Below, piece by piece: positions 21,105 through 23,065 of a stretch of DNA of 47,242 nucleotides. Under the pieces are notes generated by a model. The model did not search any database, had not been told where the DNA came from, and saw only the letters and a program-made list of their open reading frames with translations. The DNA comes from Myxococcus sp. (GTDB lineage: Bacteria > Myxococcota > Myxococcia > Myxococcales > Myxococcaceae), in NCBI GenBank assembly GCA_014879945.1, contig JACSRE010000102.1, forward strand, positions 1-47,242, given 5' to 3'. The translations under genes were made by a program, and so were the position numbers. Numbering within the stretch: the first letter of the stretch is position 1; every line of letters begins with the position of its first letter.

Positions 21105-21752
21105 GTGAGCTTTCGCCAGGCGCTCGCCGACAACCCTGCGCCCTCCACCCTCGGCGACGTCGCGCTCCGCTACGAGCCGTCGATGCTGATCGGCCAGACG
21201 CGCCAGGGCCCGCTGACGTGGCGACCGACCGCGCTGTGGGTCGTGGGCCTGGGGCTGATCGCCACCGCGCTCCCCGCCAGCCGGGCCGAGTCCAGCTGGC
21301 CGACCCTGGCGCTGCTCAGCCTCTCAGCGGGGGCCTTCCTCGCCTCGGCGCTTCGCGCGGCCCATGAGCGCCGCAAGCGGGGCTTCGTGGTGAACTTCAG
21401 CACGGCGACCCTGCGGCTCGACTTCGTCACGCCGATCGCCGGGCGGCCGCGCACGCTGCTGGTGCCCTTCGAGCGCGTGAAGGCGGTGGGCCTGATGGAC
21501 CAGGCCGACGGGCAGCAGTGCCTCACCGTCGACTTCCTGGAGGGCGAAGACGTGCTCCGCGAGGCCCTCGCCGCTTTCATCCCGGCCGGCCAGCTCGACG
21601 CCGCGAACCGGCTCCTGCACGTGCTCGAGGGTGCGTTCGGACTCGGGTCAATTCCGCCGGACAGCCTGTACCTTTCGACCCAGAGCCCGGCAGGACCCGC
21701 CGGTTTCGACGCGACCCCACCCGGGTCGGGCGGGCTCGACCCAGAACGCTAG
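21105..21752 (+). CDS. Hypothetical membrane protein
   Basis: A 215-residue protein beginning with GTG. There is no clear ribosome-binding site, but a TAGCTC box just ahead might be a -10 element of a near-leaderless message. It has two close membrane helices (about 43-58 and 64-82), then a cytoplasmic domain of about 110 residues with beta strands and Arg/Val-rich segments that resembles small PH-like membrane-anchored domains. The C-terminal 40 residues are Pro/Gly-rich and probably disordered. I do not recognise a family. The downstream matrixin gene starts 60 bp later, behind a long hairpin. Confidence 0.65.
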   Translation: MSFRQALADNPAPSTLGDVALRYEPSMLIGQTRQGPLTWRPTALWVVGLGLIATALPASRAESSWPTLALLSLSAGAFLASALRAAHERRKRGFVVNFSTATLRLDFVTPIAGRPRTLLVPFERVKAVGLMDQADGQQCLTVDFLEGEDVLREALAAFIPAGQLDAANRLLHVLEGAFGLGSIPPDSLYLSTQSPAGPAGFDATPPGSGGLDPER

Positions 21753-21774
21753 GGAAACCAACGCGATCGCGGCC

Positions 21775-21812
21775 GCAGGGGGCGAGGCACGGCCCGTGCT
21801 CTGGCCCCCTGC
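21775..21812 (+). promoter_or_regulatory. Long hairpin ending at the matrixin-gene start codon
   Basis: GCAGGGGGC (21775-21783) pairs with GCCCCCTGC (21804-21812). Inside it GCACG pairs with CGTGC around a 3-nt loop. The right arm ends at the base before the ATG (21813). No T-run follows and no ribosome-binding site lies between. It may end the upstream transcript or control translation initiation. Confidence 0.45.
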
Positions 21813-23018
21813 ATGCGCTCGTTGCTCGTGCCGTTGGTGTTGGCCCCGCTGATGGCTTCGGCCTTCGAGCTGCGCACCGACACCCAGGGCGACGTGGTGC
21901 GCTGGCGGCGCGCGGTCGTCTTCGTGGTCGACCCCTCGCTGGGCGCCGTGCTCTCGGAGCCCTCGGCGCTCGCCGCGGTGAAGCGCGCCATCGTCGAGCT
22001 CGACGAGGCCACGCCCAGGCTCGACGTCTCGGTCGTCGAGGGCGCGGTGCGCGGGCCGGGGTTTCTGCTCGACGAGGGCGCGACGAACCAGAACGAGATC
22101 CTCGCGCTGGCTGACTGGCCCTACACCGACGGCGCCCTGGCCTCGACGGTGGTGACGGTGAACGCGCGCACCGACGAGATCCTCGACACCGACATCGTCT
22201 TCAACGCCGAGCAGCACACGTTTCGGGTGCTGCCCGCCGCCGTTCCCGGCCCTGATCTCGACGACGTGCAGAACACGGTCACCCACGAGCTCGGCCACGC
22301 GCTGGGGCTGATGCACAACGCCCATGACGCGCGGGTGGTGATGTACCCACGGGCCTCGGCTGGAGAGACCGGCAAGCGGGTGCTCCAGGAGGACGACCGC
22401 GACGGGCTGTCGGTGCTCTACAGCGACGCCGTGGTGACTCCACAGGTGCTGCGCGAGCAGCAGATGGGCTGCGCCTCGGCGCCGGGCACGGGCGGCTGGC
22501 TGTTGGCGGCGCTGGCCTTCATGACGCTCCTGATGGGCCGCCGCTCGGCGCGCGTGCTGGTGCGCGTTCCCCTCCAGTCCTCGGTTGGCCGGGGGCTGGG
22601 CCTGCTCGTCGGCGTGGTGGGGGCGGCGGCCTGGGCCCAGCCCGTGGCGCCGATCGGCGTCGGCGTGGTGCGGGCGAAGGTCGCCCACCGCGCCCCCTCG
22701 TCGCCCGGCCTGATCGTCACCTCGCTCGAGCTGGACCTCGAGGCCTGCGCCTCTGCCTCGGCGTGTGAGCGCGTCATTCGGGTGACGGTGCCTGGTGGCC
22801 GGCTGGGCGACCTCGAGCAGGTCGTCGAGCATCACCCCGTGCCCGCGCTGCAGGAGCGGTTGGGGCTGGCGACCCGGAACGGCCGCGTCGTCGTCTTCCG
22901 CCTCGCCGAAGCCAGTGAAGCTCAGCGGTTCCAGGAGCTCCTCGTGAAGTCGGCAGCACCCCAGCCGAGCGCGCAGCCTCCAGGGCGCGCCGCGCAACCC
23001 GTTGGCTCTTCGAAGTGA
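21813..23018 (+). CDS. Matrixin-like metalloprotease with internal MYXO-CTERM-like segment
   Basis: A 401-residue protein with a signal peptide (about 1-18). A matrixin/metzincin catalytic domain spans about 20-215 with the zinc motif HExxHxxGxxH (His158, Glu159, His162, His168). At about 217-245 there is a MYXO-CTERM-like sorting signal: Cys220, a short Gly/Thr linker, a hydrophobic helix and a double Arg. Normally this ends a protein, but here about 155 residues follow, beginning with a second hydrophobic stretch (about 258-275, ending AWA-QP, like a signal peptide). The rest is a soluble region of unknown family. This looks like two exported proteins joined in frame. The peptidase would be surface anchored after sorting. 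A sequencing or evolutionary loss of a stop codon cannot be excluded. Confidence 0.78.
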   Translation: MRSLLVPLVLAPLMASAFELRTDTQGDVVRWRRAVVFVVDPSLGAVLSEPSALAAVKRAIVELDEATPRLDVSVVEGAVRGPGFLLDEGATNQNEILALADWPYTDGALASTVVTVNARTDEILDTDIVFNAEQHTFRVLPAAVPGPDLDDVQNTVTHELGHALGLMHNAHDARVVMYPRASAGETGKRVLQEDDRDGLSVLYSDAVVTPQVLREQQMGCASAPGTGGWLLAALAFMTLLMGRRSARVLVRVPLQSSVGRGLGLLVGVVGAAAWAQPVAPIGVGVVRAKVAHRAPSSPGLIVTSLELDLEACASASACERVIRVTVPGGRLGDLEQVVEHHPVPALQERLGLATRNGRVVVFRLAEASEAQRFQELLVKSAAPQPSAQPPGRAAQPVGSSK

Positions 23019-23065
23019 TCGTCGTGGCACCCGCCTTGAAGTCCACCGCAGTGAAGGAGTCTCCC

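Follow-up and report, generated by a model that had tools for sequence, protein, structure and literature searches.

Exported polyproteins with cleavage at internal signal peptides are a typical feature of viruses that infect animals and plants. In bacteria, fbcH is a precedent for a polyprotein cut at an internal signal, and to our knowledge exported polyproteins of this kind have hardly been described there. In Myxococcota, proteins carrying the MYXO-CTERM sorting signal are cleaved by myxosortase, after the cysteine in the authors' model, and without the enzyme, which also works in Escherichia coli, TraA of Myxococcus xanthus is not properly anchored at the surface, as far as the available text of that study goes (PMC11980579). 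The same text calls internal MYXO-CTERM segments rare and describes one in MXAN_5598 of M. xanthus, a likely two-gene fusion for which processing of the N-terminal part has been proposed (PMC11980579). A comparable archaeal case, according to the accessible part of the report, is HVO_0405 of Haloferax volcanii, which arose by fusion of two formerly independent genes and is cut at a central site by archaeosortase (PMC7157517). In the TraA/TraB system, a MYXO-CTERM protein and an OmpA-type protein are encoded by overlapping open reading frames, as outlined in the available portions of two papers (PMC11980579, PMC3325183).

Here we analyse a gene in a 47,242-nucleotide stretch of a Myxococcus sp. 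draft genome (contig JACSRE010000102.1), referred to as the window, in which a matrixin, an internal MYXO-CTERM, a second signal-like segment and a C-terminal domain that we call PGG lie in one frame. The window protein shares an internal MYXO-CTERM with MXAN_5598, where it precedes an OmpA-type barrel; unlike in the window protein, other proteins flank the MYXO-CTERM there, and an internal signal peptide goes unmentioned in the available text (PMC11980579). Gene fusion and a C-terminal-type sorting signal in mid-protein are common to HVO_0405 and the window protein, whereas HVO_0405 is archaeal, with another enzyme and another signal, and the accessible text mentions no second signal peptide downstream of the cut (PMC7157517). 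TraA/TraB differs from the window gene in consisting of two genes rather than one frame. The myxosortase-dependent metalloproteases of family NF041905 (the MXAN_2677/MXAN_2678 family) contain a related matrixin, and members carry MYXO-CTERM; with 86.9 bits at a cut-off of 250 and PGG fused to its C-terminus, the window protein is a relative and not a member, whereas both matrixins beside a PGG gene at locus L106 are members. In the literature searched, as far as its text was accessible, neither a second signal peptide after an internal MYXO-CTERM nor PGG is described, and a 2024 in silico myxosortase paper may say more.

Results

Organization of the fused gene

The preliminary description of this locus had reported a MYXO-CTERM-like segment (Cys220, helix, Arg-Arg) after the matrixin domain and, about 40 residues past Cys220 in the same frame, a second signal-like stretch. 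The frame and coordinates given there were right: positions 21813-23018 of the forward strand, on which all parts of the gene given below lie, form one uninterrupted open frame of 401 amino acids plus stop, and the same one-frame architecture is present in 21 genomes. Judged from the sequence, the protein begins with a signal peptide (residues 1-17, 21813-21863, ...MASA|FEL), whose A17 is nearly invariant in the alignment of the fused proteins. It is followed by a matrixin (M10) catalytic domain (residues 18-205, 21864-22427; PF00413, 37.8 bits, cut-off 24) with an intact HExxHxxGxxH zinc site (HELGHALGLMH, residues 158-168, 22284-22316), in which H158, E159, H162 and H168 are invariant among 20 aligned fused proteins. 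The MYXO-CTERM segment reported after this domain was recovered as a TIGR03901 match at 22467-22553 (residues 219-247), with Cys220 (22470-22472) at its start and the helix and Arg residues following. This segment scores 22.9 bits in the genome scan versus 16.1 bits in the whole-protein scan (cut-off 20), ranks sixth among the 32 TIGR03901 matches listed for its own genome and has the hallmarks of the signal, namely the invariant Cys, the hydrophobic helix and the Arg-rich end. It is followed by 154 residues and so does not lie at the extreme C-terminus.

Between the hydrophobic segments lies an Arg-rich loop (residues 243-261, 22539-22595) with five Lys/Arg and no Asp/Glu, which is predicted to be cytoplasmic. 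The second signal-like stretch could likewise be located, at residues 262-275 (22596-22637), with A-W-A directly before Gln276 and a predicted signal peptidase I cut after AWA275; by pattern, all parts of an internal type I (Sec) signal appear to be present, namely a basic n-region, a short hydrophobic core and an A-x-A site. The remainder consists of the PGG domain (residues 276-381, 22638-22955), predicted to form an OB-fold barrel with a C-terminal helix, and an Ala/Pro-rich tail (residues 382-401, 22956-23015) predicted to be disordered, with low pLDDT (means of 59, 55 and 42 in the last three blocks of the full-length model, from residue 381 onward). For residues 252-401, no family was found in Pfam or NCBIfam. 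Codon-position G+C across the junction (0.79/0.61/0.97) is coding-like throughout. A long open reading frame on the minus strand (21648-23030; position G+C 0.90/0.51/0.76) was discarded as an apparent shadow driven by G+C content. Between the stop of the window gene and the start of a response-regulator gene (23066) lies the element TGGCACCCGCCTTGAAGT (23025-23042), which resembles a sigma-54 -24/-12 element in which, relative to the consensus, GA replaces GC at -12; TGGCACC.G.CTTGAA.T at this site is invariant in the 9 loci aligned, out of 21.

Conservation of the junction

When 145 genomes of the order were searched and the frames extracted, 21 proved to have the fused frame. They belong to 12 genera: seven genomes of the window genus (including that of the window), four of genus g4 and 10 others, one of them in another family. 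In one genome (G050), the fused gene ends at a contig edge within PGG, and close matches in two others (G129 and G138) stop just past the MYXO-CTERM. Among 20 aligned fused proteins, G219, C220 and the zinc ligands are invariant, as are C312, C318, G328, G329, G332 and Q336 in the C-terminal part. When paralogues and other fusions of the same order were included, 68 fused records yielded 28 distinct matrixin-to-PGG junctions, all of which were tabulated. Each of the 28 contains the Gly-Cys, the helix, the basic cluster and the second hydrophobic stretch, so that the case envisaged in the preliminary description, relatives with a full-length protein and no second signal, was not encountered; the loop has three to eight Lys/Arg and no or one Asp/Glu in every junction. 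Behind the second stretch, 27 of the 28 junctions have an A-x-A, and all 28 have the looser pattern [AVGSTL]-x-A. A-x-A is common in such alanine-rich sequence, with a mean of 18.7 of 28 after residue shuffling (n = 2000; maximum 26), and none of the 2000 shuffles reached 27; the occurrence of A-x-A after the second stretch exceeds chance. In six congeneric gene pairs, pN/pS ranged from 0.13 to 1.54 for the MYXO-CTERM, from 0.38 to 1.23 for the second signal and from 0.37 to 0.55 for the matrixin. Fast evolution of the junction is expected for signal sequences, and pN/pS gives no sign of selection on it.

Similar junctions in other proteins

We surveyed 66 MYXO-CTERM matches in four genomes in addition to that of the window gene, comprising the best 20 of 31 matches in its own genome and 46 elsewhere (all matches at E 0.1 or better in G104, G131 and G042, apart from the matrixin-PGG fusions of G131). 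Six of the 66 are followed by over 60 further residues in the same frame, and five of these six then have a second signal; the sixth (L233, G042) proved to be a lipoprotein-type signal rather than a MYXO-CTERM and was dropped. In two cases on contigs C9 and C154 of the window genome (L175 and L187), the second signal is of the lipoprotein type with a Met in front, and these may be separate genes in one frame because the Met precedes the second signal. On contig C277 of the same genome, a frame of 2120 residues (L237:4274-10633) has a type I internal signal between two tandem adhesin-like halves, each of which ends in a MYXO-CTERM-like tail, the second half also containing CARDB and Ig-type domains. 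The gene L239:3-5360 of G104 has the architecture of MXAN_5598, of which it is presumably an orthologue on the basis of that architecture: an adhesin-like part and a MYXO-CTERM are followed, as in the window protein, by an Arg-rich loop and a second signal, here of type I and ending ALA|Q, and then by an OmpA protein. In L240:140-3064 (G131, contig C338), the last of the five, and likewise in L281, L299 and L312, a lipoprotein-like signal comes directly after the MYXO-CTERM, and a lipoprotein might therefore be the second product. The second product of L281 and of L299 is a trypsin-like protease with a MYXO-CTERM-like tail of its own.

A profile of the hairpin formed by the two hydrophobic segments and their loop (A5, 47 positions) was built from 27 hairpins and run over the 145 genomes. 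Among the 150 profile matches listed, 82, including 23 matrixin-PGG junctions, run stop-free to at least position 41, and six get that far with a stop. At least 59 stop-free junctions lie outside matrixin-PGG; two of them (C277 and G104) had been used in the profile, and the other 57 are distributed over 39 genomes, with no frame among the 57 matching the matrixin or the PGG profile. Since many are homologous to one another, the 57 sites do not represent 57 independent fusions. Classed by simple end patterns, the sequence downstream of the 57 hairpins is of OmpA type in 25 cases, has a second MYXO-CTERM-like tail in 13, an aromatic end in seven and other ends in nine, and runs off the sequence in three. 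Outer-membrane barrels end in an aromatic residue. Pfam found OmpA, trypsin, CARDB or Ig-type modules in 11 of 20 downstream parts (18 of the 57 plus L237 and L239). A-x-A occurs in 56 of the 57 sites, a count that is circular and was not used as evidence because profile A5 itself contains A-x-A; the evidence at these sites lies in the unbroken frame and in the kind of protein that follows. As neither OmpA proteins nor barrels can function before they have left the inner membrane, the natural reading would be that they are released at the second signal. As a control, we scanned five genomes found by way of loci with a Proteobacteria or Deltaproteobacteria-like label, and no match reaching position 41 was found in G145-G147; the control was not clean, with two stop-free matches reaching that position in G148 and three in G149, and these two genomes may use the same hairpin system.

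The PGG domain

The PGG domain was modelled as a barrel with a C-terminal helix (pLDDT 91), and structure comparison retrieved OB folds, with RPA32 (2pqa_A) and SlyB (7ojf_A) at Z 7.0, complement C-terminal domains at Z 5.6-6.2 and agrin NtA, PCOLCE NTR and TIMP-2 at Z 5.1-5.5. Twelve of the best 50 structural rows are what we take to be NTR/TIMP-type domains (complement C-terminal, agrin NtA, PCOLCE NTR, AceES-2 and TIMP-2); they are mixed with other OB folds, and all Z are below 8. Foldseek by itself gave PGG no match at E 0.001 or better, and a sequence search of solved structures with PGG returned implausible matches only. Pfam searches of 54 PGG members gave scattered weak matches, with no TIMP or NTR family among those shown, the only related match being NtA in one of the 54 (E 0.034). 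The invariant Cys pair of the fused family (Cys312 and Cys318) would fit an oxidising compartment.

Separate genes and origin of the fusions

The relatives were examined for separate genes, as the preliminary description had suggested, and matrixin and PGG were each found as such. PGG profile matches are present in 131 of the 145 genomes; many of those listed fall within open frames some 170-260 residues long. Where the loci were fetched, such frames proved to be genes in their own right that mostly sit immediately upstream of one matrixin gene or two. Inspection of 12 of these loci showed a hydrophobic, signal-like stretch at the start of separate PGG and a tail of the Cys-helix-basic type at the end of the separate matrixins. 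The window genome itself holds such a separate PGG-matrixin set (contig C186, L149). In 46 of 49 pairs, a count that was not de-duplicated, the stop of PGG and a start codon of the matrixin frame overlap. A matrixin is found at all of the 30 best PGG loci (21 fused, nine adjacent), which are the top scorers of a profile of the fused PGG form, so that weaker PGG without matrixin may exist. Fusions in the reverse order, with PGG before the matrixin and a single C-terminal MYXO-CTERM-like tail, were found at L151:1344-2798, L152:1717-3147 and L161:1292-3193. PGG and matrixin belong together, given their adjacent or overlapping genes, the matrixin at the top PGG loci and the fusions in both orders. 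The window genome has a further PGG-like frame (L004, contig C395); the long protein encoded downstream of it is rich in Cys and contains a divergent matrixin domain.

Three genes of the window genus (L123, L153 and L163) are fusions of the same design. In a matrixin tree of 54 chosen rows, which did not include the same-order fusions L088, L094 and L105 or the reverse fusions, they and the window family make up two distinct clades, each with 100/100 support, and a joint clade of the two was rejected (AU p 0.027; the groups compared were named after a first tree had been seen). In larger quick trees, L123, L153 and L163 fall among separate-gene proteins. In the PGG tree, the separation of the second fusion was not significant (AU p 0.106). 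The fusion in the window order probably arose more than once. Simple loss of a stop is not a straightforward route to it, since PGG lies upstream of the matrixins in most loci seen; the matrixin-PGG-matrixin order at locus L159 of G137 is a possible pre-fusion arrangement.

Discussion

The window gene is a single conserved frame that, as read from its sequence, has two export-type signals and places a MYXO-CTERM between two modules that elsewhere appear to be exported separately. Of the two explanations offered in the preliminary description, the polyprotein is the better one, with splitting at the membrane itself being our interpretation: the gene likely encodes an exported polyprotein that would be cut by myxosortase and by signal peptidase I. 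The first signal peptide would export the matrixin, after which the MYXO-CTERM helix would stop transfer, keeping the Arg-rich loop on the cytoplasmic side. Export would then resume at the second hydrophobic stretch, for which the Arg cluster would serve as n-region, so that PGG would reach the periplasm and the chain would span the inner membrane as a hairpin. Myxosortase would cut just after Cys220, the residue to be lipidated in the scheme of Guo et al. The protease would travel to the surface via type II secretion, while a cut by signal peptidase I after Ala275 would free PGG. Protease and PGG would be made in 1:1 amounts, since one messenger encodes both. The window genome contains a match to the myxosortase core model of 138 bits (cut-off 100), and 130 of the 145 genomes score above the cut-off. 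The polyprotein is favoured by the recurrence of the fused frame, the second signal in all 28 junctions, the separate modules of relatives, the second fusion and the other hairpins, with MXAN_5598 and HVO_0405 as precedents. The fast-evolving junction and the 16.1 bits of TIGR03901 in the whole-protein scan speak against the polyprotein, as do the candidate internal starts of the window gene, the AU p 0.106 for the second fusion in the PGG tree, the commonness of A-x-A in alanine-rich sequence and the unclean control of the hairpin profile. The other explanation, two merged genes, holds in the evolutionary sense, both modules being separate genes in relatives, and fails as a recent merger.

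Among the alternatives, translation could initiate internally, with an ATG, GTG or TTG within the loop or close to it as the start of the second protein and the shared frame being incidental or used in part. At least one possible start codon is present in 63 of 85 hairpins, an ATG in 19 of these, and a candidate start preceded by a Shine-Dalgarno-like sequence in 14 of the 85; in the window gene, ATG241 just before Arg-Arg would give MGRRSAR... ahead of the hydrophobic core, and GTG codons occur at residues 248 and 250. However, ATG, GTG and TTG are all missing where one would be needed in eight of the 28 junctions and, with the other hairpins included, in 22 of 85, and no Shine-Dalgarno-like sequence was flagged before ATG241, GTG248 or GTG250. 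Moreover, among the 150 profile matches listed, stop-free ones reaching position 41 outnumber stopped ones 82 to 6, so that the open frame itself is kept, and we consider internal initiation unlikely.

The gene could also encode one uncut two-domain protein, both domains being periplasmic and held by a hairpin in the inner membrane. Uncut hairpin proteins are possible in principle, and the full-length model (pTM 0.76, with a low-confidence link) may hint that the two domains pack together. An uncut protein would leave unaccounted for the invariance of Cys220 in 20 aligned proteins and a signal-peptidase-like site kept in 27 of 28 junctions by the stricter pattern and in all 28 by the looser one. 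In addition, other hairpins often precede OmpA-type or MYXO-CTERM proteins, which should fail if tethered to the inner membrane. This makes an uncut protein quite improbable. A lost stop or frame error joining two genes, which the draft state of the genome (448 contigs) might invite and which the preliminary description had kept in view, has a negligible chance of being true: the presence of the fused frame in 21 genomes from 12 genera, with the second signal in every distinct junction, rules out both a recent merger and a sequencing error.

As an addition to the polyprotein reading rather than a competitor of it, PGG might be a TIMP-like inhibitor of the adjoining matrixin, which we put forward as a tentative idea. 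TIMPs inhibit matrixins in animals, and for that reason the NTR/TIMP-type rows, 12 of the best 50 as judged from titles and ranges, are suggestive beside a matrixin. The predicted OB-fold barrel with its C-terminal helix (pLDDT 91), the matrixin at all 30 best PGG loci and the fusions in both orders point the same way. Against this, the RPA and SlyB rows rank equal or higher, every Z is below 8 and sequence profiles lend no support, the one NtA match among 54 members (E 0.034) being the sole related Pfam match. TIMPs chelate the enzyme zinc via an N-terminal Cys, whereas the predicted mature N-terminus of PGG is Gln276. More broadly, the protease encoded with it is the most likely target of PGG, which could be an inhibitor, a chaperone or a cofactor.

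Judged from the partly accessible literature, an internal MYXO-CTERM followed by a second signal is apparently more frequent than published work suggests. It is conceivable, if doubtful in this full form, that the hairpin is a general device of Myxococcota for dozens of pairwise polyproteins, in which proteases, adhesins, OmpA proteins and lipoproteins would share one Arg cluster and be separated at the inner membrane by myxosortase and signal peptidase, the pair in the window being a matrixin with a TIMP-like OB-fold inhibitor or chaperone. If such junctions are routine in Myxococcota, lists of MYXO-CTERM proteins would be incomplete, and some surface and outer-membrane proteins would have been mis-annotated as giant single proteins. 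The hairpin would also be a clean reporter of myxosortase, cut and uncut forms differing in size by an entire protein and not just by a few kilodaltons. PGG, a secreted family that accompanies matrixins and has no Pfam or NCBIfam entry, would be directly testable as a matrixin inhibitor or helper.
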